A stretch of 64,000 bases of DNA from Candidatus Thiothrix sulfatifontis (GTDB lineage: Bacteria > Pseudomonadota > Gammaproteobacteria > Thiotrichales > Thiotrichaceae), in contig CP094685.1 in NCBI GenBank assembly GCA_022828425.1, positions 744,001-808,000 of the forward strand, written 5' to 3'. Every line of letters starts with the position of its first letter. Positions within the stretch are counted from its first letter, which is position 1. A program made the translations under genes and the position numbers. The notes below the pieces were generated by a model, which worked only from the letters and a program-made list of their open reading frames with translations, did no database searches and was not told the DNA's origin. Of this stretch, positions 21,202 to 28,412 are shown one piece after another.

Positions 21202-22455
21202 CTAATGGATAGCCATCAGTTCGGCAATTCCTTGTTTCCAAACGGTTTGCATCCGTTCACCGATTGCGGTGAAGGCGGGGTTTTGGTGTTGATAGGCTTG
21301 TAATTCCGGCAAGGTGCTTTCCAAGCCGTGCGCCACCCATTCCAGCAGGTGTTTGGCGCGACGCTCGTTGATATTGCAAAACTGGCGGGCAAAGGCCAAC
21401 AGTGCTTTGCGTTCCGGGAAGGCTTTGCTGCCCCCAAATAACAGTGCCAAGGTGTCATTGGGGATGTACGGCGTGGTGGAAACAATATCGAATGCGGGTG
21501 CAAAGCGCACTTCGCCTTCCGGGTCATTGTAGAGTACCCCGAAGTTTTTCAGGTGTGCATCGCCATTGCGCACCGCACAGGTTAGCGCTAACGAGAGGAA
21601 AAACTGCTCCAATGCTTCGTGTACCCGTGTGGGGGACACAAATTGGCGGATGCGTTGCGCAATATCTTGATAACTGCCAACGTATTTGTCATCAGTGGCC
21701 AAACCGTTCAGCACACAGAAATCTTCAAAACCGAGGTAGCCGCCATTGGCATCCAGATCGAAACGTTTGACGATTAACAGACGCCCTTGCGCGGCGAGTT
21801 CCACATCGGGGGTTTCCAGCCCGGCTTTGCGTGCGGCTTGCATACAGAAATATTCGTTGGCAGCAAGTTGTGGGAAGCGGTCGGGGTTCCAGCCTTTGAC
21901 AATGTGGGTGGCATCGCGGTAACTGAATTGCTCCAATTGCGCGGCGGTGGCGACAGTATCGGCATCGCGCACTAATACTTTGGGTTGCACACCGGAAATA
22001 CCTGAATAGCGAGCGTAACGTTGCAATAAATCAGCGAATAAATCTTCTGTGCCGGAATAGGTGCGCAATTCCTGCATGTCTTGCAGCGGCATCGCATCGG
22101 GCAGTGTTCCTGCGGGGGTAATGCGGATGCGCCCGATTTGCGAATGCCCCACGATGCTCAATAAGGCGAGGTCGTCAAAATTCTGCACGGTTTTTTGGAA
22201 ACGGTTACGCAATAATTCGCGCAGTTCGCCTTCGGGCAGATTCATTTGAAAAATCGGGTGTACCCCTTGTTGATAGCCGTATTGGTCGGGCATGACCGGC
22301 ATGGTGAGCGACACCGCTTGCGCAGGCGCGGTATCGGGTGAATAAGCAAACACGTAATTGAGCGCTCGCAGCGCACTGCGCCCTAGCGTGCCACTGCATT
22401 GGTTTTGCACGTAAATATCGAGGCTGCTTGGTGCGGTCGGTGCGGGGGTGCTCAT
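21202..22455 (-). CDS. hipA: HipA-type serine/threonine kinase toxin
   Basis: This 417-residue kinase is of the HipA family, whose best-known member phosphorylates GltX to trigger growth arrest. An N-terminal subdomain (to about residue 110) is followed by the G-loop-like S-G-V-Q-P-K, H-I-V-K with the ATP-binding lysine, the catalytic N-G-D-A-H-L-K-N, and F-D-I-V-S-T as the metal-binding motif. All key residues appear present. It overlaps the hipB stop codon by four bases, as in classical hipBA operons. The target in this organism is unknown. Confidence 0.88.
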   Translation of the reverse strand: MSTPAPTAPSSLDIYVQNQCSGTLGRSALRALNYVFAYSPDTAPAQAVSLTMPVMPDQYGYQQGVHPIFQMNLPEGELRELLRNRFQKTVQNFDDLALLSIVGHSQIGRIRITPAGTLPDAMPLQDMQELRTYSGTEDLFADLLQRYARYSGISGVQPKVLVRDADTVATAAQLEQFSYRDATHIVKGWNPDRFPQLAANEYFCMQAARKAGLETPDVELAAQGRLLIVKRFDLDANGGYLGFEDFCVLNGLATDDKYVGSYQDIAQRIRQFVSPTRVHEALEQFFLSLALTCAVRNGDAHLKNFGVLYNDPEGEVRFAPAFDIVSTTPYIPNDTLALLFGGSKAFPERKALLAFARQFCNINERRAKHLLEWVAHGLESTLPELQAYQHQNPAFTAIGERMQTVWKQGIAELMAIH

Positions 22456-22718
22456 GAGGTGCGGCCTGTTTTGCGTTGGGTAATCTCATCCACCAGCGTG
22501 TGCAAGGTGGGGCGGCGCGGCGCGATGGGTTGAACGAGTAATTCCAAGCCCAACACGGAGCAGAGGGCGAGTATTTTGCGAATGCCGACTTCGGGAATCG
22601 TGCCATTTTCGATTCCAGAGAGCGTAGCACGGCTCATGCCGACTTTTGCGCTTAAATCGGCTTGGGTAAAACGGCGTTGTTTGCGGGCGTCGCGCAAGGC
22701 TTGCCCTAATAATGTCAT
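22452..22718 (-). CDS. hipB: HipB-type XRE antitoxin
   Basis: This 88-residue protein has a single helix-turn-helix of the Cro/CI type (A-R-K-Q-R-R-F-T-Q-A-D-L-S-A-K-V-G-M-S-R around residues 10-30) and a C-terminal tail. It should neutralise HipA and repress the operon. ATG 22718 is chosen because AGG is seven bases upstream; ATG 22724 and the TTG at 22742 are less well placed. It overlaps hipA by four bases. Two repeats 40 bases apart upstream are candidate operators. Confidence 0.87.
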   Translation of the reverse strand: MTLLGQALRDARKQRRFTQADLSAKVGMSRATLSGIENGTIPEVGIRKILALCSVLGLELLVQPIAPRRPTLHTLVDEITQRKTGRTS

Positions 22719-22730
22719 GTCCATGCCTAG

Positions 22731-22781
22731 TATATAGTGCAAATTAATGCTTTTAACAAGTTATGCATTATATACAGTGCA
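22731..22781. promoter_or_regulatory. Candidate HipB operators (two repeats, 40 bp apart)
   Basis: TATATAGTGCA (22731-22741) and TATACAGTGCA (22771-22781) are near-identical direct repeats whose starts are exactly 40 bp apart, about four helical turns. The second lies in an imperfect palindrome beginning TGCATTATATA. They sit between hipB and the divergent XRE-Ig gene. Confidence 0.5.
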
Positions 22782-22866
22782 TAACAAAAATGGTGTATTC
22801 TCTATCGTATTGATTTCCTTTCTGTTAAATTAATAAACGTCAGTTGATCATTGAGGAATAATAAAC

Positions 22867-23475
22867 ATGTCTGCATTAGATTTGGCAGATTACTTGCGTT
22901 TGCGTCTGCGTGCCATGCAGATGACAACCACGGAAGCTGCAAAACGTTCTGGTATTTCACGCCAAACATGGCACAAGCTGTTGCGTGCCGAAATTGGTGA
23001 AGCACGCTTATCCACCCTGACGCAGGTGGCGGATACGCTGGAAACACACCCATTAAGCATGTTGCGCATCTTTTTTAGTGGGCGCGAAGTGTCACTGGCC
23101 GGGCGTAGAGGCGGTAGCACGGCTTTTGTGCTGGGTTTTGTGGCGGATGTAACCTTCCCCGACAATAGCCAGGTTCGCGTCGGGGAAGAGTTTGAGAAAA
23201 CCTGGGAAGTTACCAATTTAGGCAAAGAAGCTTGGATTGGTTGGCATTTGCAATGCGTGAGCGTTGACGGCGACGCGAGCCTGTTGCCAATGCGTGAAAA
23301 TGTGCCGATTCCTGATACTCAGCCGGGTGAGCAGGTGCGTTTAACGGTGCGTTTGCGTGCACCCAATACACCGTGCAGTGCCGTGATTTCGCATTGGAAA
23401 TGTGTCAATGCGGCGGGTGAAATAGCCATTCCTTCTCATGCTGGGCTGTATTGCATGGTTAAAGTAGTGGCTTGA
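22867..23475 (+). CDS. XRE helix-turn-helix protein fused to an NBR1-like Ig domain
   Basis: This is a 202-residue two-domain protein. Residues 1-72 form a Cro/CI-like DNA-binding domain (T-T-E-A-A-K-R-S-G-I-S-R-Q-T-W-H-K-L). Residues 88-202 match the central immunoglobulin-like fold of the NBR1 family: A-D-V-T-F-P-D near the start, then K-T-W-E-V-T-N-L-G, P-G-E-Q-V-R-L-T-V-R-L-R-A-P, and a final Y-C-M-V-K-V. A GAGGAATAA-type ribosome site precedes the ATG. A short paralogue lacking the Ig domain lies at 26013-26285. The function is unknown; a regulator with a protein-binding module is plausible. Confidence 0.8.
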   Translation: MSALDLADYLRLRLRAMQMTTTEAAKRSGISRQTWHKLLRAEIGEARLSTLTQVADTLETHPLSMLRIFFSGREVSLAGRRGGSTAFVLGFVADVTFPDNSQVRVGEEFEKTWEVTNLGKEAWIGWHLQCVSVDGDASLLPMRENVPIPDTQPGEQVRLTVRLRAPNTPCSAVISHWKCVNAAGEIAIPSHAGLYCMVKVVA

Positions 23476-23511: not shown

Positions 23512-23539
23512 GTAGAGACGCAACTTTTTGCGTCTCTAC
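23512..23539. repeat. 28-bp palindrome between convergent genes, copy 1
   Basis: The arms GTAGAGACGCAA and TTGCGTCTCTAC are perfect 12-base inverted repeats around a four-base loop. It lies between the convergent XRE-Ig and reductase genes, so it may act as a bidirectional terminator. A second copy is at 25930-25957. Confidence 0.8.
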
Positions 23540-23566: not shown

Positions 23567-24598
23567 TCACCCCTGCATCGCTTTCAGCCTATCCGGGCTG
23601 TATTCAAACGAATCGTAAAACAATTGCGCCTCCGGCAAACCCTGCGCCAAAAACGCCATTTGCGCCGCATTCACCATCGGTGGCGGCCCGCTCAAATACA
23701 CATCATGCCCCGCCGAATCCGGGAAATCACGCGCCACCGCATCGTGTACCCAGCCCGTGCGCCCCGCCCAAGCATCTTCCGGCAACGGCTCCGATAACAC
23801 CGGCACATAAGTCAACAACGGGTGACGCGACACCCAACTGCGCACCACGCTATCCATGTACAAATCTGCCTTAGCCCGCACGCCCCAATACAAGTGCACT
23901 GGCTTCTCCAAGCCTTGCGCCATCATCTGTTCCAACATGCCTTTTAGCGGCGCAAACCCCGTGCCACCGCCCATCAAAATCAGCGGGCGTTCGGATTCGC
24001 GGATATAAAAACTTCCCAACGGCCCCTCAATGCGTAACAAAGCCTTTTCTTTCATCTCATTGAACACATGGCTGGTGAAATAACCACCTGGCACATGGCG
24101 AATATGCAATTCCAGAAACTGATCGTTAAACGGCGCATTCGCCAGCGAAAAACCGCGCCGCTTGCCATCTTTCAGCAAAATGTCGACGTATTGCCCCGCC
24201 CGAAACCGCAAGCGTTCGGACGCGGGCAATTTCAGCGTCAACTCCATCACATCCGCCGCCAATTTGCGCAGCTTTTCAACCCGCACTGGCAAGGCTTTGA
24301 TTTCAATGTCCGGCTCCAGCCCCACACGCGGCGCATCAATTTCCAGATCGCTCAACGCCGCAGCCATGCACAAAAACGCTTTGCCACGTTCTTCCTCATA
24401 CGGCGCAAGCCCTTGCGGTTCACCAAACGGGTAATGCACCTGCCCACTCAGCACGGTGGCAGCGCACGAACCACACACCCCGCCACGACAACCGTAAGGC
24501 AACGCCACGCCTTGGCGCAAACCCGCCTCCAAAATTGCCTCGTTAGCTTCTGCCCAAAATGTGTGTCCCGAAGGTTGAACCGTTACCTTGAAAGTCAT
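23567..24598 (-). CDS. 2Fe-2S/FAD reductase (CDP-6-deoxy-glucoseen reductase-like)
   Basis: This 343-residue electron-transfer flavoprotein has a plant-type ferredoxin domain first, with C-R-G-G-V-C-G-S-C near residues 38-46 and a fourth cysteine (F-L-C-M-A) near 77. A ferredoxin-NADP reductase module follows, with R-G-F-S-L-A-N-A-P for FAD and [10 protein letters not shown] for NAD(P). The layout is that of AscD/Fre-type or oxygenase reductases. No oxygenase or sugar-dehydratase partner is adjacent, so the substrate is not clear. It is divergent from purT. Confidence 0.82.
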
Positions 24599-24703
24599 TG
24601 CTGTATCCCTAAAAATCTCGAATCGGCAGAGTGTAACGCGCCGGAATCGCTTGTGCTATTCTCCAGACTTTTCCGCCCACTTGTTGCCACTCGGAGGCCA
24701 TTC

Positions 24704-25900
24704 ATGCGCATCGGAACCCCGCTTTCCCCCTCAGCCACCCGCGTCATGCTGCTTGGCAGCGGCGAACTCGGCAAAGAAGTCATCATTGCCCTGCAACGCT
24801 TAGGCGTGGAAGTGATCGCGGTTGACCGTTACGCCGATGCGCCGGGGCATCCCGTTGCACACCGCGCCCACGCCATCAATATGGCAGACCCGCAAGCCTT
24901 ACGCGCCTTGGTGGAAGCCGAACAGCCGCATTTTATCGTGCCGGAAATCGAAGCGATTGCCACCGACGAACTCGCCGCGATTGAAGCCGCCGGTTTAGCA
25001 GAAGTGATTCCTACCGCACGCGCCACGCAACTGACCATGAACCGCGAAGGCATCCGCCGGTTGGCAGCGGAAACCTTGGGTTTGCCGACTTCGCGCTACC
25101 ACTTCGCCTCCAGCTTGGCAGAGATGCAAGCCGCCGCCGCTGACGTGGGCTACCCCTGTTTCGTCAAGCCGGTGATGTCATCCTCCGGCAAAGGCCAGTC
25201 GATGCTAAAAAGCGCGGACGAGGTGGAAGCCGCGTGGGAATACGCGCTGTCAGCGGGGCGGGTGAATCATGGGCGGGTGATTGTGGAAGAATGCATCCAT
25301 TTTGATTACGAAATCACCTTGCTTACCGTGCGAGCGGTGGGGGAAAACGGCGCAATCGCTACCCATTTCTGCGACCCGATTGGGCATCGCCAAGTCAAAG
25401 GCGATTACGTCGAAAGCTGGCAGCCGCAAGCCATGAGCGCCAGCGCCCTTGCCAAAGCGGAAGACATTGCCGCGAAAATTACGGATAACCTCGGCGGGCG
25501 CGGCTTGTTTGGGGTGGAATTATTCGTGCGTGGCGATGAGGTGTATTTCTCCGAAGTCAGCCCGCGCCCGCACGACACCGGCATGGTGACAATGGCAACG
25601 CAATTCCAGAACGAATTCGAGCTACATGCCCGCGCTATCCTCGGTTTGCCGGTGAATACTGCATTGCATTCCACGGGCGCAAGTGCGGTAATTTACGGCG
25701 GGCTGGAAGCGGAAGGCATTGCGTTTGAAGGCGTGGAACACGCGCTGCAAGTGCCAGAAAGCGACGTGCGCTTATTCGGCAAGCCGGTGGCGTTCGAGCG
25801 GCGGCGCATGGGCGTGGCGTTAGCGCGGGGCAAAGATACGGATGAAGCGCGAGCACGAGCGGCAGAAGCGGCAGGGCGCGTGAAGCCAATTAAAAATTAA
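24704..25900 (+). CDS. purT: Formate-dependent phosphoribosylglycinamide formyltransferase
   Basis: This 398-residue ATP-grasp enzyme performs the folate-independent third step of purine synthesis, using formate and ATP. The N-terminal G-S-G-E-L-G-K-E-V motif, ATP-grasp residues ([15 protein letters not shown]) and the late [13 protein letters not shown] block are visible. The start is ATG 24704, with CGGAGG six bases upstream. The frame is open much further upstream, but that part is antisense to the reductase gene and unlike the family. Confidence 0.95.
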
Positions 25901-25929
25901 CCTCCTAAATGTGCAAATACCACATCACC

Positions 25930-25957
25930 GTAGAGACGCAAAATTTTGCGTCTCTAC
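25930..25957. repeat. 28-bp palindrome between convergent genes, copy 2
   Basis: The arms GTAGAGACGCAAAA and TTTTGCGTCTCTAC form a perfect 14+14 inverted repeat with no loop. It sits between purT and the short XRE gene, which are convergent. It shares its outer 12 bases per arm with copy 1 at 23512. Confidence 0.8.
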
Positions 25958-26012
25958 ATTCGCAGACCCTGGCAACAAATTCATGCGCTACCCCTCCATC
26001 CCCAGCTTGCAA

Positions 26013-26285
26013 TTAGACTGTCGCGCCACCTGCCGAATACTGCTTCCACTGATGATTCGATGCCCCATTCGATTGGAAATACACCTCCAATAAATCGGGA
26101 ACCGAAGTCCGCAACGTCGCCGCCACTTTGATTAAGGTCGACACTTTCGCCTCCTGAATCTCGGCGCGCATTAGCTTGTGCCATGTTTGCCGCGAAAGCC
26201 CCGAACGCTCTGCCACGTCTTTGATGCTGAGACCCAACACCTGCATCCGGCGTTGCACGTAATTGGCTAAATCCATTGATGACAT
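26013..26285 (-). CDS. Short XRE helix-turn-helix protein (paralogue of the XRE-Ig protein)
   Basis: This 90-residue protein is the DNA-binding half of the XRE-Ig protein at 22867. Both begin M-S-x-x-D-L-A-x-Y and share S-R-Q-T-W-H-K-L-x-R-A-E-I-x-E-A-x-x-S-T-L. The tail after the HTH is short and there is no Ig domain. ATG 26285 is chosen because it aligns with the paralogue and has purine-rich GAGGGAACAGGGG upstream. It is divergent from the LuxR-type gene, with two palindromes between them. Confidence 0.75.
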   Translation of the reverse strand: MSSMDLANYVQRRMQVLGLSIKDVAERSGLSRQTWHKLMRAEIQEAKVSTLIKVAATLRTSVPDLLEVYFQSNGASNHQWKQYSAGGATV

Positions 26286-26350
26286 CCCCTGTTCCCTCGA
26301 TAACACCCAATAATGGCATTGAGTTTCACGGTTTGGGCGTGGGGCAACAA

Positions 26351-26366
26351 GGTAGAAATTTCCACC
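26351..26366. promoter_or_regulatory. Candidate operator palindrome 1 between XRE and LuxR-type genes
   Basis: A 16-bp imperfect palindrome (GGTAGAAATTTCCACC; one mismatched pair) sits in the divergent spacer. It is an operator candidate for either regulator. Confidence 0.4.
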
Positions 26367-26388
26367 CTTGACGATGCCGCTTGAGCGT

Positions 26389-26402
26389 GGCAGTCGACTG
26401 CC
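26389..26402. promoter_or_regulatory. Candidate operator palindrome 2 between XRE and LuxR-type genes
   Basis: A perfect 14-bp palindrome (GGCAGTCGACTGCC) lies about 55 bases before the LuxR-type start, in the position expected for an activator or autorepressor site. Confidence 0.45.
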
Positions 26403-26455
26403 GTTAGACTAGTGGTACTAACACCCAAAGCCCAGTTGCTGGGAAGTCTGGATTT

Positions 26456-27226
26456 ATGCGCCCTCATCAATATTTACTCGGTGACTTTGTTAATACACTG
26501 TTTTCCAAACCCTCGTTTCAAGAACGCTTCACGCTTTACGTCAACTTCATCGAAACGCTGGGGTTTGAGGGGCGGGTTGTCTACACCTACTTGCCGCTGT
26601 TGAGCCTGGAACGCGAAGGCAAGCTATTCCCAGCCACGCCAGAATTCACGCATACCCATGATTACCCGGTTAATTTTCTGCAACACTACGTCGCTGAAAA
26701 TTTGGATCGCTGCGACATCAGCGTCAAAAAAATCAAAAACAACGATTTTTCACTGACAAACTACCGCGAACACGCTGAAACCATCGGACTGAAACCTGAT
26801 GAAAATCATTTTGATAAGTTAGCCACGCAATTATACGGCTGCGTGAATGCCCTCAGTATTCCCGCTGCGGGGGCAATCGGCATTTCCACCATCAATATTA
26901 TCAGCAGCGAACACCCTGATATTTTTAACCATTTAATGCGCGAACGCGCCGAACTGTTGTTGCAGATGACGCAGATATTCCACAGTTTGGTATTATCCGA
27001 CCCGCAAACCTGCACGCGGTTTACCTCGCCGTTTTTGCCAAGCTTAAATGAGACCGAAATTACCATTTTACGCTACGCAGCCACGGGTAAGCCCTTCAAA
27101 AACATTCAAGATCACACGGGGATTTCGTATCGCTACGCCAGCAAGGTGCTGGATAAACTGCGCGATAAATTAGGGGGAATTAATCGGGATAGATTGTTCT
27201 ATTTAGCCGGATTATTGCATTTGTGA
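26456..27226 (+). CDS. LuxR-type transcriptional regulator
   Basis: This 256-residue protein has a LuxR-type helix-turn-helix in the last 65 residues: L-N-E-T-E-I-T-I-L-R-Y-A-A-T-G-K, then N-I-Q-D-H-T-G-I-S-Y-R-Y-A-S-K-V-L-D-K-L. The N-terminal 180 residues may be a ligand domain of the autoinducer-binding shape, but I do not see the conserved tryptophan/aspartate set clearly. No luxI-type synthase is adjacent, so it would be an orphan regulator. A small gene follows seven bases after the stop. Confidence 0.7.
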   Translation: MRPHQYLLGDFVNTLFSKPSFQERFTLYVNFIETLGFEGRVVYTYLPLLSLEREGKLFPATPEFTHTHDYPVNFLQHYVAENLDRCDISVKKIKNNDFSLTNYREHAETIGLKPDENHFDKLATQLYGCVNALSIPAAGAIGISTINIISSEHPDIFNHLMRERAELLLQMTQIFHSLVLSDPQTCTRFTSPFLPSLNETEITILRYAATGKPFKNIQDHTGISYRYASKVLDKLRDKLGGINRDRLFYLAGLLHL

Positions 27227-27233
27227 ACCAGCA

Positions 27234-27653
27234 ATGAAAGCAACAACACCCTATCTCAACACTGACCTTGACCTGATTGCCGAGCAGGATTTGACGCTTC
27301 TGGTGCAGGCGTTGGAAGCCAGCGGTTTGTATTCATTGCACGCGGGTGTTGGTGATGACGGCAAATGGTATGCAACGTTGGAAGTCAATGAAGCGGCTGA
27401 CGAGGCATTGCACCTGCGCCAGCCTGAGCTGACTATTGTGCTCATGCTTGATGCTATCGAAGCACTGGATGCTCCAGCCCGTGCCATTTGGGACGCTTGC
27501 ATGACCAAAACATTGGACATTGGTTATCAATGCGGCGGGTTACGGGTCAGAAATGGGCTGACAAATGTAACCCTAACCCGCATGACCGCTTTGGGGGTGG
27601 ATATGTCTATCTCGCTGTATCCGTGCGAATTAGATAACATCAGGAATCATTAA
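27234..27653 (+). CDS. Hypothetical protein downstream of LuxR-type gene
   Basis: This 139-residue soluble acidic protein has no signal peptide or membrane segment and no recognised domain. It starts seven bases after the LuxR-type stop, so it is probably translated from the same message. Its 3' end overlaps the convergent gene at 27630 by 24 bases. The function is unknown. Confidence 0.6.
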   Translation: MKATTPYLNTDLDLIAEQDLTLLVQALEASGLYSLHAGVGDDGKWYATLEVNEAADEALHLRQPELTIVLMLDAIEALDAPARAIWDACMTKTLDIGYQCGGLRVRNGLTNVTLTRMTALGVDMSISLYPCELDNIRNH

Positions 27654-28355
27654 TGGTCTATCAATAAGGCAAAAATCTTCCTGTTCATGCTTTTTTAATG
27701 TCGCAACAAATTGATCTCTTAATACACCTGCATCTTGACCAGCCGCGCGTAGTGCCAAGGTTTCTTTTGCATAAAGCGGGGCTATTGCCAACATACGTAC
27801 ATCCCCATAAGGTGTTGAAAAAACAGCGGGAATGCTCGGTGATGAATAACCTAGAATAACGCCAACATGCCCCTCATCTGTTGTATGGTAAACTTCAGGC
27901 ATACAAGGGGCAGGAGATTCGAGGGACAGACAGGAATAATGCTTAAACAGATTCAGGTTAGCAGGCTCATAAGCAATATCATCAGACACTGCTTTGACAA
28001 GTCTGAATAAGCAGGATGACATTGCCTCCTCAATGTTTAGATTTCCTGGCATTTCCGCGCAAATTTCCACCCCAAAACCAAGGGGTGTGCCGTCATCCCA
28101 GTAGGTGTCACTCATGCCGTCAGTGGCAATGATGACGGAATGAGGACGATTAATGATTGTCCAAGCGGGTTTTTCTCCGGGCCAGACGGAGCCATCGCCC
28201 AAGAAACAGGGATGATTAATGGGTGTCAGAACAAAAGGACATACCTCGCCAAGGCTGGCATAGAACGTGGCACGCGCTTTCTCTGTTTGTACACTGGTAT
28301 CGGTATCTATGGTTTCACAAGATTGTTCGTTCATGTCCATTGTTTGTCTATCCAT
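27630..28355 (-). CDS. Hypothetical protein, weakly like bacterial suppressor-of-fused domains
   Basis: A protein of up to 241 residues, cytosolic by appearance. The central region (I-I-A-T-D-G-M-S-D-T-Y-W then F-G-V-E-I-C) and the late P-Y-G-D-V-R-M-L-A-I-A-P-L-Y block recall the bacterial SUFU-domain proteins, some of which act as immunity proteins. This is a weak visual match. Start choice is uncertain between ATG 28355, 28340 and 28334; none has a strong ribosome site. It ends opposite the small LuxR-linked gene and starts about 60 bases from rtcB tail copy A. Confidence 0.45.
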   Translation of the reverse strand: MDRQTMDMNEQSCETIDTDTSVQTEKARATFYASLGEVCPFVLTPINHPCFLGDGSVWPGEKPAWTIINRPHSVIIATDGMSDTYWDDGTPLGFGVEICAEMPGNLNIEEAMSSCLFRLVKAVSDDIAYEPANLNLFKHYSCLSLESPAPCMPEVYHTTDEGHVGVILGYSSPSIPAVFSTPYGDVRMLAIAPLYAKETLALRAAGQDAGVLRDQFVATLKKHEQEDFCLIDRPLMIPDVI

Positions 28356-28412
28356 TCGTAATGTTAAGAATTCACCTATCCTTAAACATACGTTATTTTT
28401 AGGCAAATAGGG

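Follow-up and report, generated by a model that had tools for sequence, protein, structure and literature searches.

The XRE-FW gene and its protein

The stretch of DNA analysed here, 64,000 nucleotides of the genome of Candidatus Thiothrix sulfatifontis (contig CP094685.1, positions 744,001 to 808,000), is referred to below as the window, and coordinates are window positions unless stated otherwise. At 22867..23475 (+), the ORF list of the window contains a 202-aa reading frame that begins with ATG and has a GAGGA motif upstream (22853-22857). Its Pfam matches (HTH_26/HTH_31 and N_BRCA1_IG) and its orthologues in the genus mark it as an XRE-FW gene, i.e. a gene for an XRE-type helix-turn-helix (HTH) joined to an FW domain—the Ig-like domain by which the autophagy receptor NBR1 reads protein ends. 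Within the genus, orthologues align with the window protein over the full length at identities of 94 and 93%, falling to 52% in the most distant one.

The HTH occupies residues 1-80 (22867..23106, +) and is matched by Pfam within residues 6-61 (HTH_26 with 27.8 bits at a cut-off of 22, HTH_31 with 27 bits at a cut-off of 27). The FW, or NBR1 Ig, domain follows at residues 84-202 (23116..23472, +), where N_BRCA1_IG (PF16158) covers residues 96-185 with an E-value of 9.6e-15 and 55.5 bits against a cut-off of 28; conservation supports it as well. A sequence search of the PDB, using a profile built from 24 family members, retrieved the Chaetomium Nbr1 FW domain (1.2e-13), human NBR1 (2.3e-12) and human ILRUN (2.8e-12) for the C-terminal part, and XRE-type repressors from 4.9e-7 for the HTH part. 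An AlphaFold2 model calculated from 20 sequences (mean pLDDT 76.8, pTM 0.52, with pLDDT below 50 in the linker region at residues 72-86 and 89-93) was then compared with PDB folds. Approximately residues 80-202 best match the FW domain of ILRUN (Z 13.6, rmsd 2.1 over 107), followed by NBR1 (Z 12.9, rmsd 3.6 over 112) and the Nbr1 FW domain in 7vqo (Z 11.9, rmsd 1.9 over 101); modelled residues 1-80 match XRE proteins, XRE repressors among them.

Since Pfam, PDB profile search and predicted fold agree, the domain observation of the first-pass annotation, which described an XRE-type HTH fused to an NBR1-like Ig domain in a cytosolic protein of 202 residues, holds in both its parts. Profile and structure comparison of residues 88-202 with a view to other β-sandwich families likewise left the NBR1-type FW assignment standing. 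The gene is intact, and its product belongs to the XRE-FW family.

For conservation, 33 soluble XRE-FW proteins were aligned (20 from the genus and 13 others, some of them near copies of each other), leaving out the broken gene of genome G010, the partial L072, and FW proteins of membrane or secreted type. At the start of the recognition helix, S31 is kept in 30 and R32 in all 33 of these proteins. No transmembrane stretch was found in the window protein, whose best 19-residue hydropathy is 1.06; among eight relatives outside the soluble set, seven reach 1.53-2.55 and the eighth (L130) 1.01. These two observations bear on a reading in which the HTH binds no DNA and the protein is a RodZ-like scaffold. 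The layout of RodZ includes a transmembrane segment after the HTH, and XRE proteins of actinobacteria and others in which a hydrophobic stretch precedes FW do resemble it. The window protein does not share that stretch and retains the recognition-helix residues, which makes such a scaffold very unlikely. The protein is very probably a DNA-binding regulator, as its HTH predicts.

Genes around the XRE-FW gene

Immediately upstream lies a divergent HipB-like XRE gene (22452..22742, −; couple_hipB, E 5.2e-14, below the curated cut-off) and, beyond it, a HipA-like gene (21202..22455, −; HipA_C, 1.9e-47). Further downstream, the window encodes a short XRE paralogue without FW (26013..26306, −), 47% identical to the XRE-FW protein over residues 1-74 of the latter, and a LuxR-type regulator (26456..27226, +) with an Autoind_bind match below cut-off (E 0.0017). 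LuxR-type homologues beside other XRE-FW or short XRE genes match the same family at 2.1e-14 and 1.1e-14. No receptor or exporter gene was found beside the XRE-FW gene of the window.

The window gene and its closest relatives form group 1, the window group, with 12 loci. A LuxR-type gene lies in the region of 8 of these, and short XRE paralogues are found near several, so that both recur as neighbours within the genus. As a basis for interpretation, the LuxR linkage was set aside: in G004 and G005, the genes most similar to the window's LuxR gene sit at other loci, and the count of 8/12 mixes distant subfamilies. In the close congeners L034 and L035, the block made up of a ferredoxin-type reductase gene, a gene that we take to be purT-like, the short XRE gene and the LuxR gene (23567-27226) is inverted relative to XRE-FW, from which we conclude that an inversion occurred beside the XRE-FW gene. 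Other features of these regions are recorded here in their own right. A FeeM-type N-acyl amino acid synthase gene (L041:10531-11226, E 2.5e-14) adjoins a LuxR-type gene near XRE-FW, and L042 has a shorter homologue; a weak SUFU match (E 0.0013, below cut-off) lies at 27630-28406 (−) of the window; and XRE-FW paralogues of group 3 (L049, L050 and L051) adjoin an AAA-ATPase_like/PDDEXK_9 gene in three of four loci, though not in the own genome (Pfam on L049).

The hipBA pair raises the question of whether the XRE-FW gene is an extra regulator of the adjacent HipBA toxin-antitoxin locus. Divergent hipB and hipA do adjoin it, with 124 bases and a palindrome in between, and a hipA-like ORF, whole or interrupted, is found nearby in 5 of the 12 window-group loci. 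In the other seven, as in the other genus groups compared, no ORF clusters with hipA, and the XRE-FW gene, being on the opposite strand, is no member of the hipBA operon. We regard a role in HipBA control as most improbable. The palindrome itself, GTTATGCATTATATACAGTGCATAAC at 22760..22785, was picked up by upstream-region repeat searches and locus alignment and is perhaps the HipB operator. In L034 and L035, no ORF clusters with hipA, yet a palindrome resembling that of the window's hipB/XRE-FW interval persists upstream of the XRE-FW gene.

Upstream elements and palindromes

A block conserved upstream of the window-group orthologues (22800..22832, +), aligned across 10 of the 12 loci with L043 and L044 left out, is a candidate promoter or operator; a genome scan found it only once in the own genome within three mismatches. 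Its position directly upstream of the XRE-FW gene would suit a self-regulating repressor, a reading to which we return below. No operator or motif common to the whole XRE-FW family was found: for 14 further XRE-FW genes, the starts of which were partly guessed, the inverted repeats in the upstream regions have nothing convincing in common, and 12 Pseudomonas upstream regions contain a loose GTTGT/ACAAC-like pair.

The short XRE gene has a palindrome of its own, with the consensus AAGGTGGAAATTTCCACCTT, at 26349..26368 (two mismatches; none in 100 shuffles); in genes of this kind it lies some 50-70 bases upstream of the likely start. Within five mismatches it is kept in 8 of 9 aligned loci, the copy of L166 being more degenerate than the others, and no copy within five mismatches was found at L167 and L168, which represent more distant short XRE matches. 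In the own genome, sites amount to the window copy and one with three mismatches. With two mismatches allowed, a shorter core is found 5-16 times in each of 15 genomes, as compared with 0-3 times for a reversed control; in G003, the genome without an XRE match, the core is seen once and the reversed control three times. This conservation upstream of the gene, together with the near absence of the core in G003, suggests that the short XRE protein is an autoregulated regulator. AAGGTGGAAATTTCCACCTT was also considered as the XRE-FW operator and rejected, because across 28 genus loci each of the nine matches with up to three mismatches sits upstream of a short XRE gene, and none adjoins XRE-FW. 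Lastly, a palindrome with perfect arms, GTAGAGACGCAA-N4-TTGCGTCTCTAC, is present in two copies (23512-23539 and 25930-25957; none in 100 shuffles) and is possibly a terminator-like element or a dispersed repeat.

Distribution of XRE-FW genes

Bacterial FW domains have been on record since 2012. In that year, Marchbank et al. (2012, PMC3357945) gave the name XRE-FW to bacterial proteins in which the FW domain comes directly after an XRE motif, listing examples from Halorhodospira, Methylomonas, Kribbella and Variovorax. XRE-FW proteins are also mentioned by Zhang et al. (2022, PMC9233695), who solved the complex of the Nbr1 FW domain with Ams1, and one Rhodococcus member is named by Rasmussen et al. 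(2022, PMC9582228). The novelty that the first-pass annotation implied for the fusion does not survive these descriptions; it is a known arrangement and ordinary for its kind. Among the matches listed in our literature search, whose coverage excludes most subscription journals, we found no experiment on bacterial XRE-FW proteins and no function for them.

The 3.69-Mb own genome, which is of Thiothrix type, carries three FW genes, all three of them XRE-FW by alignment. Full-length matches to the window protein occur in 12 of 16 genus genomes, with internal stops in the copy of G010, and matches to at least the HTH in 15 of 16. Beyond the genus the family thins out: any FW domain is present in 15 of 369 class genomes, and XRE-FW at an E-value of 1e-10 in 4 of 398 Pseudomonadota genomes, the own genome included. 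Thirteen of 249 Pseudomonas genomes and 3 of 116 genomes of another family have it as well. Further FW architectures exist, namely XRE plus a hydrophobic segment plus FW, and FW in tandem within larger proteins. No phage record matches the window protein; plasmid matches are limited to four distant FW genes of actinobacteria, none of which covers 80% of the query. In Rhodococcus fascians and Gordonia hongkongensis (loci L169 and L170), the plasmid NBR1-Ig gene is divergent from a DUF2690 gene.

TonB-dependent receptors linked to XRE-FW genes

In group 2 of the genus, which includes a paralogue from the own genome (genome position 2144730), a TonB-dependent receptor gene lies directly downstream of XRE-FW in four of five loci, L045 being the one without. 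Outside the genus, a receptor gene is directly adjacent in a Methylococcales genome, in Marinospirillum celere, in the gammaproteobacterium of L069, and in G668 and G839. Taken together, adjacency is seen in 6 of 17 lineages (the own genome's paralogue plus five others), with gaps of −8 to 124 bases and a gene order that differs between loci, one being receptor-first and one convergent. In this count, neighbouring ORFs were clustered mechanically, with the XRE-FW ORFs of L067 and L220 identified outside that clustering; L069, L134 and L164 stem from one genome and count once; and absence of a receptor elsewhere was judged by clustering with the linked receptors plus Pfam on some neighbours. 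All six linked receptors examined with Pfam are TonB receptors, L066 by its plug domain alone. The siderophore-type family TIGR01783 is the best NCBIfam match of all four linked receptors tested and exceeds the cut-off in two. By eye, the own linked receptor (L161:4741-6705, −) and those of G013 and G014 lack an obvious signal peptide at the called start, unlike that of L047.

Three lines of evidence concur that a single receptor clade travels with XRE-FW genes. First, the best match of the own linked receptor is the linked receptor in each of seven other genomes, two of them congeners. Used as a query, it matches the linked receptor of G668 at 1.5e-100 and the next receptor at 1.3e-8; the margin is weakest in Marinospirillum (1.4e-23 versus 2.8e-10) and elsewhere mostly spans many orders of magnitude. 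Second, 25 of 369 class genomes match this receptor at 1e-20, and with at most three candidates scored per genome, matches better than 1e-42 were confined to the own genome and G127, both of which have a linked XRE-FW gene. Third, a tree was built from seven linked receptors and the top-matching receptors of ten other class genomes, chosen for closeness rather than drawn at random; a branch supported at 100/100 sets the linked receptors apart from these. In 1.5-kb flanks around the ten unlinked receptors, no match to XRE-FW was found. A chance estimate for 6 of 17 lineages, assuming 20-60 receptors per genome, gives 2e-8 to 3e-5, but the lineages are only partly independent of one another. Because of that partial dependence (L066 and L214 are sisters), the case for specificity rests on best matches, class-genome scan and tree. 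A literature search showed no publication pairing an FW domain with TonB-dependent receptors among the matches listed, and the linkage was thus not seen there.

In a tree of XRE-FW proteins, those linked to a receptor do not group together, which requires at least two changes. Group 1 and group 2 unite in one clade (96/98), so that the window copy and the receptor-linked paralogue stem from a duplication; the window group itself lies on one side of a branch with a support of only 58/35, and group 2 could lie inside it. The receptor module is a property of the own paralogue at 2144730, and not of the window gene.

Transport genes recur in a second setting. In all 13 Pseudomonas loci, a divergent LysE-type gene lies within about 1.1 kb upstream of XRE-FW (assigned by Pfam on two representatives and by similarity for the rest). 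Eight of the loci have a second, convergent LysE-type gene downstream, and in seven, a gene with a sub-cut-off match to 2OG-Fe(II) oxygenases separates the first LysE-type gene from XRE-FW. As congeners share descent, these 13 loci represent one lineage. The proposal that the window gene encodes a regulator, already supported by its HTH, thus gains indirect support from the neighbourhoods of its homologues.

The FW pocket

In Chaetomium, the Nbr1 FW domain uses F651, D654, D658, W672, L762 and W763 to hold Ams1 by its free amine and its two leading glycines, and it strictly needs Gly-Gly in its ligand (PMC9233695). Sequence alignments place F91, D94, D99, W113, L194 and Y195 of the window protein at these positions, i.e. 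five of six are identical and the sixth, W763, is a tyrosine. Across the 33 soluble proteins, F91, D94, D99 and W113 are kept in 32, 32, 33 and 33, and L194 in 30, while position 195 varies (Tyr 15, Ser 7, Trp 4, Thr 3, His 3, Met 1). With the amine end and the floor of the pocket fixed and one wall variable, the pattern fits ligands that differ between members; judged from these alignments, the largely kept pocket would suit an amine-bearing ligand, be it the N-terminus of a protein, a peptide or something else. FW proteins of the membrane and secreted types, inspected by eye, also keep the pocket residues, and for this reason the conservation may be structural. Two cysteines, C130 and C196, are present in all 20 genus rows and missing from 5 and 4 of the 13 other rows, respectively; a redox role was set aside.

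The pocket bears on two further readings. FW might be a mere multimerisation or assembly module in a ligand-free, self-regulating XRE repressor akin to SinR or CI. Dimerisation is one of the two options, next to binding of a small signal, that Marchbank et al. (2012, PMC3357945) offered as a guess, and the conserved block upstream of the window gene points the same way. Speaking against it are the four acidic or aromatic pocket residues, kept at 97-100% over 33 proteins, and the linkage to uptake and export genes, which suggests a ligand; we rate assembly alone as rather unlikely. Alternatively, as the first-pass annotation proposed, FW may recruit a specific cytosolic protein, much as fungal Nbr1 takes Ams1 by its N-terminus, with the regulator answering to its partner. 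Fold and pocket do match the protein-binding Nbr1 FW domain, and the LuxR-type and short XRE neighbours in the genus would offer partners. Across the lineages examined, however, XRE-FW genes have no single partner gene in common as a neighbour, and the receptors that do recur are outer-membrane proteins rather than obvious cytosolic partners, leaving recruitment unlikely. Dimerisation and protein recruitment are both live rivals to ligand sensing.

A possible ligand-responsive regulator of transport

Our preferred reading, to which we assign about an even chance, is that XRE-FW proteins are local one-component regulators in which FW binds a ligand, probably amine-bearing, and thereby controls a neighbouring transport gene. 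The N-terminal HTH would bind an operator close to its own gene, probably as a dimer; the acidic, aromatic pocket of the C-terminal FW effector domain would take up an amine-bearing ligand, whether a peptide, the N-terminus of a protein or a compound resembling an amino acid; and the bound ligand would switch DNA binding. Where a neighbour recurs, the regulated genes would be those for transport, be it the dedicated TonB-dependent receptor clade or the LysE-type exporters of Pseudomonas. The window gene, a duplicate of the receptor-linked paralogue with no receptor beside it, would belong to a small group of local regulators together with the short XRE and LuxR-type proteins. In this scheme, we infer dimerisation, DNA binding, the type of ligand and the direction of regulation and, for the window copy, the same mode of action as in its linked relatives. 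Several findings count against this reading: the window gene adjoins neither receptor nor exporter, and only 6 of 17 XRE-FW lineages have the adjacent receptor; no operator is common to the family; gene order varies among linked loci; FW proteins of the membrane and secreted types keep the pocket residues too; and the fourth wall of the pocket, a Trp in Nbr1, is replaced by Tyr in the window protein and varies among Ser, Trp, Thr, His and Met in other members.

A broader version, which we consider rather doubtful, holds that the bacterial FW domain is a ligand-reading effector that senses the free amine on a peptide or siderophore-like compound, that each XRE-FW protein controls its own uptake receptor or exporter, and that the cargo domain of the autophagy receptor descends from, or shares ancestry with, a bacterial nutrient-sensing domain. 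The receptor clade, rather than the fusion itself, is the part worth following, as it offers a concrete handle: which compound passes through the receptor, and does FW bind it? If FW did, the cargo-recognition domain of an early autophagy receptor would have a bacterial counterpart, the ligand of which could be found by ordinary biochemistry.

Comparison with known systems

As in the XRE-FW proteins of Marchbank et al. (2012), FW is the C-terminal domain of the window protein and directly adjoins the XRE HTH; no essential difference sets the window protein apart from them. The four Trp positions that characterise FW, rarely swapped for another aromatic residue (PMC3357945), are represented by W113, W123 and W177, present in 33 of 33 proteins, and by the aromatic Y195 of the window protein in place of the fourth. 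Gene neighbours are not a topic in that paper's section on these proteins.

Autophagy receptors of the NBR1 type are defined by a PB1 or ZZ domain beside FW (PMC9582228). Apart from FW, the Pfam matches within the 202 residues of the window protein are HTH families and weak extras, and the protein is therefore no such receptor: unlike Nbr1, NBR1 and ILRUN, it has no PB1, ZZ or UBA domain, and its FW is joined to a DNA-binding domain. With the Nbr1 FW domain (7vqo, 4ole) and ILRUN (6vhi) it nevertheless shares the Ig-like fold (Z 11.9-13.6), and the N-terminal-amine pocket of Nbr1 is mostly kept.

The repressors SinR, 434 Cro and P22 c2, each with its own kind of C-terminal part, have the same HTH fold and a DNA-binding activity that the window protein likely shares; it carries FW where they have those C-terminal parts. 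The membrane- and secreted-type FW proteins of Actinomadura, Micromonospora, Caulobacterales and Chloroflexi also combine FW, often, with XRE, but place a hydrophobic segment before FW or carry tandem FW domains in larger proteins, and are probably extracytosolic, in contrast to the soluble two-domain protein of the window.
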